Shown here piece by piece: positions 21,022-63,262 of a stretch of DNA of 64,000 nt. This DNA is from Tsuneonella deserti. Lineage in GTDB: Bacteria; Pseudomonadota; Alphaproteobacteria; Sphingomonadales; Sphingomonadaceae. Each line of letters begins with the position of its first letter. The first letter of the stretch is position 1. Below the pieces are notes generated by a model, which was not told where the DNA came from, ran no database searches, and was given only the letters and a program-made list of their open reading frames with translations. The stretch covers positions 1,251,001 through 1,315,000 of the forward strand of contig NZ_BMKL01000001.1 in assembly GCF_014644315.1 (NCBI RefSeq), written 5' to 3'. Both the position numbers and the translations under genes were made by a program.

Positions 21022-21537
21022 TCAGCTCCCGCATTGGGCGGTGCCGTCCTCCTGGTAGACGATCTGGTCATGATCGTTGCGCAGGACGAGCCGTGCCGGA
21101 TAGTTGACGGTTTCGATCCCCGACTGCTTGCCCTCCTCGCTCGCAAGATCGAGGATGAAGGACCACGCTCCGCCGGTATACTTGCCCTTGGCGCCGAGCG
21201 GCAGGTCGCCGCTGCCGGCGTCCGGGGCGAACACGACGATCTTGTTGTCGATCTTCATGAAACCCCGTTCCGCCTGGAGCAGGGCGACCGTCGCGATCCC
21301 CTTGCCCGGGGCGAAGCTGCAGCCGGCGCCGAACATGTCAAATTTTTCGATATCGGGCATCCCGATCGTGCCAGGTTGTACCGGCGTCGGTGGCGGGACC
21401 TGCGCGGCTTCGACCGCGGCCACGTCCGCCTCATCCATCCGCGCCCGCTCGGAAGGAGAAAGTTCTTCGTTCCCGCATGAGGCGACAAGGAGAGCCAGAC
21501 AGGAAATCGAGGGCAGGCGCATGAAGGACAGGTGCAT
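21022..21537 (-). CDS. Hypothetical lipoprotein, formerly coupled to mutL
   Basis: From ATG 21537 the precursor is 171 residues with a lipoprotein signal (LPSISCLALLVASC, lipobox V-A-S-C). GGAG lies 7 bp upstream, and the ATG overlaps the stop of the mutL remnant as TGATG, which supports this start over TTG 21540 and ATG 21522. The mature part has a proline-rich linker (VPPPTPVQPGT), then a compact domain with two cysteines (GAGCSFAPG and the C-terminal QCGS). It resembles uncharacterised sphingomonad lipoproteins that follow mutL. Function is unknown. Confidence 0.75.
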   Translation of the reverse strand: MHLSFMRLPSISCLALLVASCGNEELSPSERARMDEADVAAVEAAQVPPPTPVQPGTIGMPDIEKFDMFGAGCSFAPGKGIATVALLQAERGFMKIDNKIVVFAPDAGSGDLPLGAKGKYTGGAWSFILDLASEEGKQSGIETVNYPARLVLRNDHDQIVYQEDGTAQCGS

Positions 21538-21590
21538 CAATGTCTCCCGAACAGTTTTTCGACGTCTTCCATGCGCAGCTTAACCGATGT
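21537..21590 (-). pseudogene. mutL': Remnant of a mutL 3' end
   Basis: Read on the minus strand, 17 codons encode TSVKLRMEDVEKLFGRH followed by TGA. This matches the C-terminus of the intact MutL in this window (TWVKLPLEDVEKLFGRK) at 13 of 17 residues. At DNA level the last 48 bases agree at 34 positions, with most differences in third codon positions, so it is a diverged homologue and not a fresh duplication. No MutL similarity could be followed further upstream. Its stop overlaps the lipoprotein start (TGATG). Confidence 0.8.
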
Positions 21591-21712
21591 CCACGCCAAT
21601 AACCGCGTTCCGCTTCGGTCGTTTCTGGCAAGGCGTCAACATCTGGCAATGAGTGGAGAACGGACGGATGATGCTCTGGTATCCCACCTCCGATTAGGGC
21701 AGTAGCGATGCT

Positions 21713-22066
21713 ATGAAAAATGATGAGAAGATCGCGCCGGTGGCCGCTGTAGCAGGCTTTGGCGGACTATTTGCGGCAGCCGCCTGTTGCGTCCTTCCCC
21801 TCGCGCTTGCTGGCGTCGGGGTTGGTGCAAGCTCGCTTGCATCGCTTAGCCCGCTCCATGCCCCTCTTTCGGCCATTGCCCTGCTCGCGGTCATCGCTGG
21901 TTGGTATTTTTACGCGAAGAGAAGGCGGGCCTGTGCTGCCGACTCCAGTTGCGAGCAACCATCGCGAGCGACCGTCCCGCTCTTGGTTCTCGCAACCGTG
22001 CTCGTGACGATTTCAGGTATCTGGCCTTTCATCGAAGCGCCGTTAATGCGGGTGTTCCAACCGTGA
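21713..22066 (+). CDS. merT: MerT-like mercuric ion transporter
   Basis: The 117-residue inner-membrane protein has three hydrophobic helices. Helix 1 holds the vicinal pair AAACCVLPLALAG (Cys25-Cys26), and the cytoplasmic loop after helix 2 holds a second pair (RRACAADSSC, Cys74 and Cys80), as in MerT, which passes Hg2+ inward between cysteine pairs. The start ATG has only a weak ribosome-binding site. Codon use is less GC-biased than in the neighbours. It overlaps the GDCCVFC gene by 4 bp. No merA, merP, merR or merB is present, so Hg2+ import with nothing visible to reduce it is odd; another thiophilic ion may be the substrate. Confidence 0.85.
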   Translation: MKNDEKIAPVAAVAGFGGLFAAAACCVLPLALAGVGVGASSLASLSPLHAPLSAIALLAVIAGWYFYAKRRRACAADSSCEQPSRATVPLLVLATVLVTISGIWPFIEAPLMRVFQP

Positions 22067-22284
22067 TCGAACTGACCTCCACCCTCACTTGTCCTACCTG
22101 CGGAGGAGTTTCCTCCGAGGAAATGCCAACTAACGCGTGCTGGTTCTTCTACGACTGCGCGCATTGCTCTGCAAAGCTTCGCCCATTGGCTGGCGACTGC
22201 TGCGTTTTCTGTTCTTATGGTGATGTTCCGTGCCCTCCCATCCAAGAGGCGCGGGCGACAGGAACTTCTGCGAGTTGCTGCTGA
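22063..22284 (+). CDS. GDCCVxC-domain protein
   Basis: The GTG start overlaps the merT stop (GTGA). The 73-residue soluble protein has 11 cysteines: CPTC (10-13), a central DCAHC (31-35), the diagnostic GDCCVFCSYG (45-53) and a C-terminal SCC. This small family occurs beside mer-type and thiol-metabolism genes, and some members carry selenocysteine in the GDCC motif; here both are ordinary TGC codons. The cysteine pattern suggests metal binding or handing on of a metal from MerT. Function is unproven. Confidence 0.82.
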   Translation: MIELTSTLTCPTCGGVSSEEMPTNACWFFYDCAHCSAKLRPLAGDCCVFCSYGDVPCPPIQEARATGTSASCC

Positions 22285-22306
22285 AGGCTCTCAAGAACTA
22301 AGCGCT

Positions 22307-24094
22307 TCATTTCCTTCCAAAAAGCTTCTCAACATCCTCCAAGGGCAACTTAACCCACGTGGGGCGCCCGTGGTTGCACTGGCCCGATCGGGGCGTTCGC
22401 TCCATCTGACGGAGAAGGGCGTTCATTTCGGCGACCGACAAGGTCCGCCCCGCCCTGACAGAGCCGTGGCAAGCCATCGTAGCCAGTACCAGGTCGAGCT
22501 TTTCGCCTAACAACAGCGCCTCGCCATGCTGGGCGATGTCGTCGGCCAGATCCTGGAGCAGTTTCGCGGGATCGGCTTTCGCAAGCGCGTGGGGCAGGCT
22601 GCGAACCAGCATGGCTGCGGGACCGAACCGCTCCATGGCGAGGCCCATGGCAGCGAGCTTGCCGGCGGCAGCTTCGAGGCGGTCGCAATCGGTCTCGTCC
22701 AGTTCGACGACCTCCGGGATGAGCATGGCTTGTGCGCGGGCGGTGGCCTCCCCTGCCCCGGCGGCTCGCAGGCCTTCGAGAACGAGCCGCTCGTGCGCCG
22801 CGTGCTGGTCCACCAGAACCAGGCCGTCCGCGGCCTCGGCCACGATGTAGGTATTGGCGACTTGGCCACGGGCGATCCCGAGGGGGTAATGAGCAGCCTC
22901 CTCCCCGACGGGTGAGGCGGGCTCGGCCCGGCCCGCCGGGGCCGCCAGGCTTTCTTCGTAAGGAGCGCGCCAGGGCATTGCGGACTCCCGTACCGACATG
23001 GGCGCTTCGGACCATTCACGCTCGCCGAAAATCGAGCTGGTCGCGGGCGCGGGCTCGACCGTCCACCGCCCCATCGCTGACGCGTCCGGCGCCTGGGCAC
23101 TTCGCCGGTCGCCGCTGCCGAGCGCCTGCCGCAGGCCGGACACGATGAAGCCACGCACTGCTTGTGGATCGCGAAACCGCACTTCTGTCTTTGCGGGATG
23201 TACGTTCACGTCCACATCCTCGGGCGGCAAGTCGAGGAACAGCGCCAGTACGGCGTGACGGTCCCGCGCCAGCATATCGGCATAGGCACCGCGCACGGCG
23301 CCTACCAGCAGCCGGTCCTTCACAGGCCGCCGGTTGACGAACAGGTACTGGTGATCGGCTACGCCCCTGTTGTACGTGGGCAACCCGGCGATACCGCTCA
23401 GGCGCATCGTGCCACGCTGGACATCGATCCCGACCCCATTGTCCTTAAGCTCGCGCGCGACGATCTGAGCGACCCGGTCGACCGAATCCTGTCCGGCCTG
23501 GAGCGCAAGTATGCGACGCTCGCCGTGACCCAGCGTAAAGCCGATGTCCGGCCGGGCCAGCGCAAGGCGGCGAACGATATCGAGGCAGGCCGCGTACTCG
23601 CTGCGTGCGGAGCGCAGGAACTTGCGCCGCGCCGGGACTTTGCCGAACAACTGTTCGATGCGAACCCGCGTGCCAGGCGGCAATGCAGCCGGGCCCTGAC
23701 CGATCGTTTCCCCATGATCGAGGGTCACGCGCCAACCTTCGGCCGCCCCCCGCGAACGGCTTTCGAGGGTGAAGCGAGAGACGCTGGCGATGGAGGGCAA
23801 CGCTTCGCCCCTGAAGCCAAGCGTCGCGACCAGTTCGATGCTTTCGTCAGGCAGTTTGGATGTGGCATGCCGTTCCAGCGCGAGAGCCATTTCGGCCGGC
23901 GTCATTCCGCAGCCGTCGTCGGTTACCTCGACCACTGAAAGGCCTCCATCCGCGAGCAGGATGGAGATCCGGCTGGCGCCAGCGTCGATGGCGTTTTCGA
24001 CGAGCTCCTTGAGAGCAGCCGCCGGACGTTCCACCACTTCGCCGGCGGCGATGCGGTTGACGAGACTTTCGGGAAGGCGGCGAATTTCAGCCAT
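22307..24094 (-). CDS. mutL: DNA mismatch repair protein MutL
   Basis: MutL (595 residues) couples MutS recognition to strand processing. The N-terminal GHKL ATPase shows LPESLVNRIAAGEVVERP, ELVENAIDAGA, DDGCGM and ATSKL...TLGFRGEALPSI. The C-terminal dimerisation domain begins near residue 400 (PLGIARGQVANTYIV, then LVLVDQHAAHERL) and ends with MACHGSVRAGR and TPRSGQCNHGRPTW. The endonuclease motif DQHAAHERL is present. The final 14 codons use TTG, CTT, TTT, GGA, AGG and AAA, unlike the GC-rich rest of the gene, which supports replacement of the 3' tail. Confidence 0.97.
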   Translation of the reverse strand: MAEIRRLPESLVNRIAAGEVVERPAAALKELVENAIDAGASRISILLADGGLSVVEVTDDGCGMTPAEMALALERHATSKLPDESIELVATLGFRGEALPSIASVSRFTLESRSRGAAEGWRVTLDHGETIGQGPAALPPGTRVRIEQLFGKVPARRKFLRSARSEYAACLDIVRRLALARPDIGFTLGHGERRILALQAGQDSVDRVAQIVARELKDNGVGIDVQRGTMRLSGIAGLPTYNRGVADHQYLFVNRRPVKDRLLVGAVRGAYADMLARDRHAVLALFLDLPPEDVDVNVHPAKTEVRFRDPQAVRGFIVSGLRQALGSGDRRSAQAPDASAMGRWTVEPAPATSSIFGEREWSEAPMSVRESAMPWRAPYEESLAAPAGRAEPASPVGEEAAHYPLGIARGQVANTYIVAEAADGLVLVDQHAAHERLVLEGLRAAGAGEATARAQAMLIPEVVELDETDCDRLEAAAGKLAAMGLAMERFGPAAMLVRSLPHALAKADPAKLLQDLADDIAQHGEALLLGEKLDLVLATMACHGSVRAGRTLSVAEMNALLRQMERTPRSGQCNHGRPTWVKLPLEDVEKLFGRK

Positions 24095-62375: not shown

Positions 62376-63262
62376 CCAGCGCCGATCTGCTGGAGGCGTG
62401 GGGCAATCACTTGCGCGATGGCCGAAGGCGTTCTCATCATACGGTCCGGGCCTATCTGGCGGCAGCCGATCGGCTGCTATCCGCCGTCCGGATCGAGGGT
62501 TGGGAGCAAGCCGCCGACATCGACGGACAGACGATACGCCGGCAACTGGCGCTGCGGAGGTCCCAAGGACTTTCCAACGCGTCGGCGGCGCGAGAGCTGT
62601 CCGCGCTCAAAGGGTTTGTCGCATTCGCTCGCAGTCAGACGGGGCGCGATGCCGTAGCTCCCCGTCTCCGCGGTCCGCGTATCAAGAAAGGGCTCCCCCG
62701 CCCCGTCACGCCCGACGAAGCGGTCAACCTCGCTGAAATGGTCGGTGGCAGCGCCAGCGACGACTGGATCGGCGCGCGCGACCGGGCCGTGCTGATCCTG
62801 ATGTACGGCGCGGGCCTGCGGATTGCCGAAGCCCTGTCGCTGACAGGTGCCGACCTGCCGCTTGGCGAAACGCTGCGAGTGACCGGCAAGGGCGGCAAGC
62901 AACGCGTCGTCCCGCTGATCCCGATCGTGCGCGCCTCGGTCGAGGATTATCTCTCGCGCTGCCCATGGCCGGTAACGAAGACGGTGCCAGTCTTTCGCGG
63001 CGCCAAGGGGGGGCCGCTAGGCCAGGGCATGGTTCAGAAGGCGATGGCGCGGGCGCGCATCGCGCTTGGCTTGCCAGCCACAGCCACGCCGCATGCTCTT
63101 CGGCACAGCTTTGCAACGCACCTTCTGGGCGCGGGGGCCGACCTCCGATCGCTTCAGGAACTTCTCGGTCATGCCAGCCTCGGCTCGACCCAGATTTATA
63201 CGAGAGTCGATGCGGCTACTTTGCTCGATACCTATCGCAGCGCGCATCCCCGGGGCCGCTAG
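62372..63262 (+). CDS. xerC: Tyrosine recombinase XerC
   Basis: The 296-residue protein has an N-terminal core-binding domain (SHHTVRAYLAAADRLL; LSALKGFVAFARSQTG) and a catalytic domain with Arg in YGAGLRIAEALSL, Lys in VTGKGGKQRVVPL, HALRHSFATHLL, LGHASLGSTQIYTRV and nucleophile Tyr276. XerC resolves chromosome dimers at dif with XerD. GTG 62372 overlaps the hemW stop. No mobile element is attached. Confidence 0.95.
   Translation: MTSADLLEAWGNHLRDGRRRSHHTVRAYLAAADRLLSAVRIEGWEQAADIDGQTIRRQLALRRSQGLSNASAARELSALKGFVAFARSQTGRDAVAPRLRGPRIKKGLPRPVTPDEAVNLAEMVGGSASDDWIGARDRAVLILMYGAGLRIAEALSLTGADLPLGETLRVTGKGGKQRVVPLIPIVRASVEDYLSRCPWPVTKTVPVFRGAKGGPLGQGMVQKAMARARIALGLPATATPHALRHSFATHLLGAGADLRSLQELLGHASLGSTQIYTRVDAATLLDTYRSAHPRGR

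Follow-up and report, generated by a model that had tools for sequence, protein, structure and literature searches.

A probable integrase-less integrative element at a recurrent integration site in the 3′ end of mutL in Tsuneonella deserti

In Tsuneonella deserti, the gene mutL is followed by a 770-bp insert (57% G+C), which occupies positions 21586..22355 of the 64,000-nucleotide stretch analysed here (contig NZ_BMKL01000001.1, 1,251,001 to 1,315,000; hereafter the window) and stands between mutL and a small lipoprotein gene, its ancestral operon partner. The insert is very probably an integrase-less integrative element, placed by a large serine recombinase at a chromosomal attachment site within the last 16 codons of mutL. 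This reading draws on an empty site in relatives, the replacement of the mutL tail, a GGT crossover, a motif common to the element-side arms (P arms) of the inserts, recurrent inserts of varied cargo, and recombinase genes at the same site in two genomes. The end of mutL is a recurrent integration site and not the scene of a one-off donor event.

The open reading frame (ORF) of mutL (22307..24094, minus strand, 595 codons) is a hybrid of a native body and an imported tail, and in the window translation the intact MutL ends in GRPTWVKLPLEDVEKLFGRK. A second reading, TSVKLRMEDVEKLFGRH followed by a stop, is found on the minus strand 0.77 kb past this end. The displaced native tail (21537..21585, minus strand), identified by its translation and by comparison with relatives that have an empty site, reads ..AWTSVKLRMEDVEKLFGRH-TGA, and its stop at 21539-21537 overlaps the ATG of the lipoprotein gene (21537-21535) as TGATG. 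The original prediction that two mutL 3′ ends flank a cassette inserted at the end of mutL is confirmed by the translations, a tail scan and the relatives with empty sites, and the predicted TGATG overlap is indeed present on the minus strand; the two 48-nt tails, said to agree at 34 of 48 bases, are identical at 33 of 48 when counted from the Trp codon. In a six-frame BLOSUM scan of 2.26 Mb of loci, with intact mutL ends excluded, seven insertion genomes scored 46-87 and an eighth (G386) 39, against at most 38 for every unrelated match, so that the displaced tail is not a product of chance; the scan overlooked the decayed displaced tails of two further genomes, G104 and G126. The MutL coding sequence stays whole after insertion. 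The lipoprotein gene (21022..21537, minus strand; an ORF with homologues near mutL in relatives and no Pfam family at E 0.1) has been displaced by the insert from its position behind mutL. The displaced tail retains a purine-rich GGGAG ahead of the lipoprotein start, which may be the reason why such remnants persist.

The mutL 3′ ends and their flanks were read in 180 genomes of the family, of which 124 come from an evenly drawn sample (a mutL match in 142 of its 149 genomes) and 56 were chosen by genus or tail pattern. The lipoprotein gene was sought in 120 of the 180, the other 60 being mostly the distant half; in 85 of these, no more than 150 nt separate it from the mutL stop, in 11 the distance is larger, and in 24 it was not found. 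In insert-free relatives, mutL ends in ..FGRH right at the lipoprotein ATG, as had been foreseen for strains without the cassette. Within the genus (11 species), seven sites are empty and four hold inserts, namely those of the window, G126, G347 and G386. Three genomes with longer gaps between mutL and the lipoprotein gene (G148, G191 and G268) yielded no displaced tail when tested for one and were not counted as inserts, nor was G039, whose gap is also longer and which lay outside that test. The ending FGRK, as opposed to FGRH, was rejected as a mark of insertion, since it is native elsewhere in the family and several inserts end in FGRH. Among the 30 nearest loci the end is FGRH in 26 and FGRK in four: the window and G013, with a full displaced tail within 1.5 kb, G126, with a decayed one, and G039, with a lipoprotein match 173 nt away and no full displaced tail in 1.5 kb.

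Across the Sphingomonadales, 23 genomes carry 24 inserts at the same mutL codons, two of them in SKS3.bin69. An insert with a displaced tail is present in 7 of the 124 evenly drawn genomes (the window, G013, G016, G048, G091, G104 and G126) and in 4 of the 56 others (G239, G305, G347 and G386). A general presence of tail fragment and cassette among relatives had been named in advance as the pattern that would speak against an insertion; instead, they were found in 11 of the 180 genomes, and the inserts compared share no cargo. Searches by tail pattern added G155, G249, G287 and G370. A scan of named genomes (43 loci in all, many from other taxa or lacking a second tail) added Sphingomonas turrisvirgatae, Sphingomonas sp. 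Leaf412, S. beigongshangi, Sphingorhabdus sp. EL138 and SKS3.bin69, along with one Altererythrobacter and one Erythrobacter metagenome-assembled genome. G881 entered through the search for recombinases and not through the tail pattern. For the decayed tails, the scores are 24.5 in G104 and 26.5 in G126, with shuffled sequence reaching at most 12 and 16.5, respectively, and in G347 and G386 the two tails sit on different contigs. The two G347 contig ends (L041 and L249) have 1179 identical bases, so that either the contigs overlap or a cargo gene is duplicated; the G386 insert (L042, 1555-2783 of the reverse complement, and L043) contains ORFs that by eye resemble insertion sequence (IS) transposases, and it breaks the assembly.

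Nineteen of the 21 fully read inserts measure 0.49-1.5 kb, the exceptions being the integrase element of SKS3.bin69 (4.5 kb) and the insert of G126 (about 7.3 kb); that of G881, read at its ends only, spans about 25 kb. The cargo of the inserts compared is without nucleotide similarity, and mutual matches (E 1e-3, more than 45 nt) are confined to the first 46-67 nt, that is to the tail, except for a 109-nt match between the left ends of G013 and G287 and the two overlapping contig ends of G347. The small inserts listed have precise ends and hold one or two little-overlapping ORFs of at least 80 amino acids. Recognised cargo includes an Abi_alpha phage-defence gene in G239 (PF14337, 3.9e-12) and a WapI-like immunity gene in SKS3.bin69 (PF24716, 4.2e-30), and a Pfam scan of seven small inserts gave no recombinase match. 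In the G013 insert (L046), a hairpin AATGTCTGC..GCAGACATT lies 109-137 nt past the mutL stop, and stretches resembling it were seen by eye in other inserts, possibly an interspersed repeat; a single pattern scan for such hairpins, which are like repetitive extragenic palindromes, matched in one locus, and no role is assigned to them.

The replacement tail that mutL has received from the insert (22307..22355, minus strand; the P′ half of attL, assigned by junctions and composition) is of the AAGCTTTTTGG type. Its G+C content is 41%, compared with 67% in the mutL body and 65% in the window; the imported tail is thus G+C-poorer than the rest of mutL, as the original prediction held. A drop as large as that of the window occurs in 1 of the 117 insert-free mutL genes of the evenly drawn, unselected sample, in which the drop is 0.19 with inserts (n = 7) and 0.11 without (n = 117; p 0.004). 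In the same sample the tail run CTTTTTGG is present in 2 of 7 insert genomes and in none of 117 insert-free ones (p 0.003), and the looser CTTTTYGG in 3 of 7 and 10 of 117 (p 0.025). An earlier count of CTTTTTGG (5 of 14 insert loci, 0 of 158 others) is partly biased, since the pattern used to choose many of the 158 did not admit CTT, tails of the same sequence were counted as one, and non-matching tails (G126 and the SKS3.bin69 recombinase element) were lost from the count. Four Sphingomonadales loci from the scan of genome contigs (L202, L210, L220 and L243) have that tail and show no second one within the stretch read.

Comparison of the left and right junctions in 19 pairs locates the crossover. 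The first base of the Val codon is the same in all 19 pairs, and the third Trp base and the second Val base are each the same in 17, while of the flanking bases the second of Trp is the same in 7 only and the third of Val in 14. The exchange point in the consensus is GGT, formed by the third Trp base and the first two Val bases, and all three are common to 15 of the 19 pairs. In the window alignment the triplet lies at 22353..22355 in attL and at 21583..21585 in attR, both on the minus strand. Across the 19 pairs, attL and attR thus show an exchange that spans about 2 bp and stays in one place; since both tails encode the same peptide, similarity to the right of the crossover is expected anyway. 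On the element side (P arm, 21586..21610, minus strand in the window), column information from 20 inserts gives a motif, T(-15)TTT.TG(-9)..T(-6)..AC, that is held at constant register by otherwise unrelated inserts, with G(-9) in 18 of 20, A(-3) in 19 of 20 and T at -15 to -12 in 12-13 of 20. These columns played no part in the selection of loci. The inserts of G104, G126, G386 and G881 are absent from both alignments, and G016 is present in that of the P arm only. One study describes the attP arm of serine integrases as about 25 bp long, with the zinc domain contacting base pairs 16-24 from the centre (PMC3783163). A scan of viral contigs with the attP pattern gave no match.

These junctions bear on how the insert arrived. 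The evidence supports the original proposal that a segment arrived with a mutL tail of its own, left the resident tail behind and cut mutL off from the lipoprotein gene; it does not support placement of this segment by recombination at the conserved GRPT region, given the GGT exchange in 19 pairs, the element-side motif and the recombinase genes found at the site in two genomes. Homologous or illegitimate recombination, by which donor-species DNA with a foreign mutL tail and the downstream gene would have entered the conserved end of mutL, is very improbable: the foreign composition of the new tail (41% as against 67% G+C) and mutL ends conserved enough for pairing speak for it, but the native tail remains on the far side, which indicates point insertion rather than replacement, and inserts of differing cargo have both the GGT exchange point and the P-arm motif in common. 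Homologous recombination at GRPT was rejected because the crossover is fixed and the native tail still stands beyond the insert.

Integron crossover sites follow the consensus GTTRRRY, which the window core (GTTAAGC / GTTAAGY) resembles, and the junctions of the window and G239 have GGTTAAG in common. Furthermore, in G094 (L175), whose mutL has an unusual tail, DARNLAKLFGRE, and where the search gave no displaced tail, an ORF that by eye resembles a P4-type tyrosine integrase is found downstream of mutL, at a distance of about 2.5 kb. Integration by a tyrosine recombinase or an integron integrase is nonetheless hardly to be expected, since other inserts have GGTGAAG, GGTCAAG or GGTAAAG, and five of the 19 pairs have different third Val bases at their left and right junctions, so that an identical overlap of 6-8 bp does not exist there. 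Neither an attC site nor a crossover at G^TTRRRY was found, and the folded ends of seven inserts show no apparent common attC-like hairpin. A weak phmmer screen of ORFs from six tyrosine-recombinase loci of the T. deserti genome against L002-L134 gave two spurious-looking matches only, and no autonomous element with a displaced tail and a tyrosine recombinase was seen at mutL. Taken together, the fixed GGT crossover and the element-side motif speak against both homologous recombination and the usual kind of tyrosine recombinase; they agree with a large serine integrase whose overlap is 2 bp. Elsewhere in the window, 62762-63214 is the core of a tyrosine recombinase ORF of 305 amino acids (Xer-sized), which is unrelated to the insert.

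Large serine recombinases are encoded at the same site in two genomes. In SKS3.bin69 the order is mutL (ending in WVKLDLKSVEKLFGRK), 45 bp, a 565-amino-acid large serine recombinase (PF00239 3.5e-17; PF07508 2.1e-8; phrog_95 integrase 2.2e-56), cargo, a tail, a 0.58-kb cassette with an ORF of 127 amino acids, and the native tail; after the 565-amino-acid gene, the 4.5-kb element has a second, small serine recombinase gene and other ORFs. Both kinds of element thus occupy one site in tandem, an arrangement that is silent on whether small inserts are passengers or trimmed relics. In G881 a recombinase 42% identical to that of SKS3.bin69 begins, if the ATG of MQKAIIYIRFS is taken as its start, 11 bp past a mutL ending in WVKLDLSAVAKLFGRH. 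The native tail of G881 is reached about 25 kb further downstream; the P arm beside it closely resembles the one of the SKS3.bin69 cassette, and a phage lysozyme gene (PF00959, 1.7e-34) lies just inside the right end, so that the ends read delimit a 25-kb, prophage-like island (L290-L291, C1 about 1321149-1346600). No third member of the clade was matched at E 1e-80 in 396 genomes of the family and 94 of the genus of SKS3.bin69; both members found therefore sit at mutL. The next matches are 26-34% identical, and the 1.5-kb flanks of the loci examined show no mutL end. Searches of the mutL loci matched large serine recombinases at L234/L264 (with L277) and L290 only, apart from one weak match in L175, far from mutL. 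A protein collection lists 21 proteins at 51-97% identity. No relative of the SKS3.bin69 recombinase was confirmed in viral contigs, and there was no plasmid match at E 1e-60. In the T. deserti genome no integrase-bearing element of this kind was found; its two nearest recombinases, about 33% identical to the enzyme found at mutL, lie about 0.9 Mb away, where two large serine recombinase genes, divergent ones, stand close together (L269 and L276, C1:377464-381488).

Placement by a large serine recombinase would proceed as follows. The enzyme would cut attB in mutL, around the Trp-Val codons (TGGGTN), and attP of a circular element, and strands would be exchanged over a 2-bp overlap (GG or GT). 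In the product attL, mutL would be rebuilt with the element's own tail, while attR would consist of the element P arm and the native tail (its B′ half), still overlapping the lipoprotein start. The attP of the element would at the same time encode substitutes for the MutL residues VKL..FGR(K/H), so that MutL remains whole. We infer that the recombinase clade of SKS3.bin69 and G881 made the window insert, either by acting in trans on small circles or by inserting a larger element whose integrase was lost afterwards.

Several points weigh against this account. Four of the 19 pairs miss a GGT base (S. turrisvirgatae and Sphingorhabdus at the third Trp base, Leaf412 and G347 at the second Val base), and whichever dinucleotide is taken as the overlap, GG or GT, two pairs must have mutated afterwards. 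To the right, the crossover is bounded by the five pairs that differ at the third Val base, and remnants drift. The window pair taken alone shares 7 bp (GGTTAAG) and is compatible with a tyrosine recombinase, and some remnants are decayed (G104, G126) or on other contigs (G347, G386). A recombinase gene was recognised neither in the window insert nor in the other small inserts, and the left tails of the recombinase elements (WVKLDLKSVEK and WVKLDLSAVAK) are not of the AAGCTTTTTGG type. The family-wide recombinase search scored at most 3 or at most 7 candidates per genome, so that absence elsewhere is not firm; neither a circle nor an excision event was seen, and two enzyme-bearing genomes are no proof that this enzyme made the small inserts.

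Within placement by a serine recombinase, the small inserts may be frozen deletion relics of larger elements and not mobile units, which is given slightly less than an even chance. Such decay is a known fate of islands of this kind, as an article on cis-mobilizable elements (CIMEs) indicates (PMC5704250); inserts that are larger or contain IS elements occur at some sites (G126, G386), and decayed remnants exist. By contrast, the narrow size range and precise ends of most fully read inserts, the small cassette beside an integrase-bearing element in SKS3.bin69, the few mutL loci with a large serine recombinase and the recombinase-free Pfam scan of seven small inserts argue against relics. Somewhat more tentatively, the Sphingomonadales could host an integron-like serine-integrase traffic, in which small circles, with an attP encoding a spare MutL C-terminus, would enter the end of mutL in trans and could be stacked, their cargo comprising metal-handling, immunity, defence and unknown genes. 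A recurrent integration site is hereby defined in a widespread repair gene, where the attachment site is also a replacement part for a protein-coding sequence. The displaced mutL tail is a simple signature of small mobile cassettes that lack an integrase gene. The site also draws attention to a clade of serine recombinases, the natural target of which is narrowed down to a few bases. With its Abi_alpha and WapI-like cargo, the site may supply such genes to sphingomonads.

The window insert itself carries two genes, and neither its ORF list nor family-model scans of the two genes gave a large serine recombinase. The first gene (21713..22066, plus strand) encodes a membrane protein of 117 amino acids, which had been called merT but is only weakly MerT-like, with both models under their curated cut-offs (PF02411, E 4.3e-4; NF010314, E 1.7e-7); aside from its own 99% entry, its closest relative is 86% identical. 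It is overlapped by a gene for a GDCCVxC protein (here GDCCVFC) of 73 amino acids (22063..22284, plus strand), for which the predicted assignment is solid (NF041374, 99.9 bits against a cut-off of 40).

Among the matches listed by a literature search, which left most subscription papers outside, there is no element at the 3′ end of mutL in sphingomonads. Integron gene cassettes are small units of varied, often unknown or defence cargo that gather at one chromosomal site. The mutL inserts resemble them as small units of varied cargo at a single chromosomal site, but here no IntI or attC hairpin was seen and the core is not conserved as GTTRRRY. Staphylococcal cassette chromosome (SCC) elements target the 3′ end of rlmH, unlike the elements in mutL; integrase-less pseudo-SCC copies exist. 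SCC elements and the ssrA islands of Dehalococcoides (PMC3146451) share with the mutL site a serine recombinase element that sits where a single-copy gene ends, tandem copies and a second, small serine recombinase gene, here in SKS3.bin69; the target differs, the inserts at mutL mostly hold one or two ORFs, and the likeness is not based on homology to CcrA/CcrB or DsiB. The chromosomal islands of Streptococcus pyogenes (SpyCI) also use mutL as their integration target, but they enter its 5′ end and disrupt its expression (PMC3430984, PMC4129442, PMC4701971), whereas here the 3′ end is used and the MutL coding sequence is restored. CIMEs are integrase-less and accrete in tandem in the end of a target gene (PMC5704250). 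The mutL inserts are likewise integrase-less, flanked by attL and attR and located at a gene end, with a tandem of integrase-bearing and integrase-less elements in SKS3.bin69, and differ in that the mutL site has a serine recombinase, most inserts measure 0.5-1.5 kb and no remains of integrative and conjugative or integrative and mobilizable elements were recognised in those scanned. The window insert resembles a CIME in that it retains attL and attR and has no integrase or transfer genes; elements that encode their own large serine recombinase occupy the same site in SKS3.bin69 and G881.

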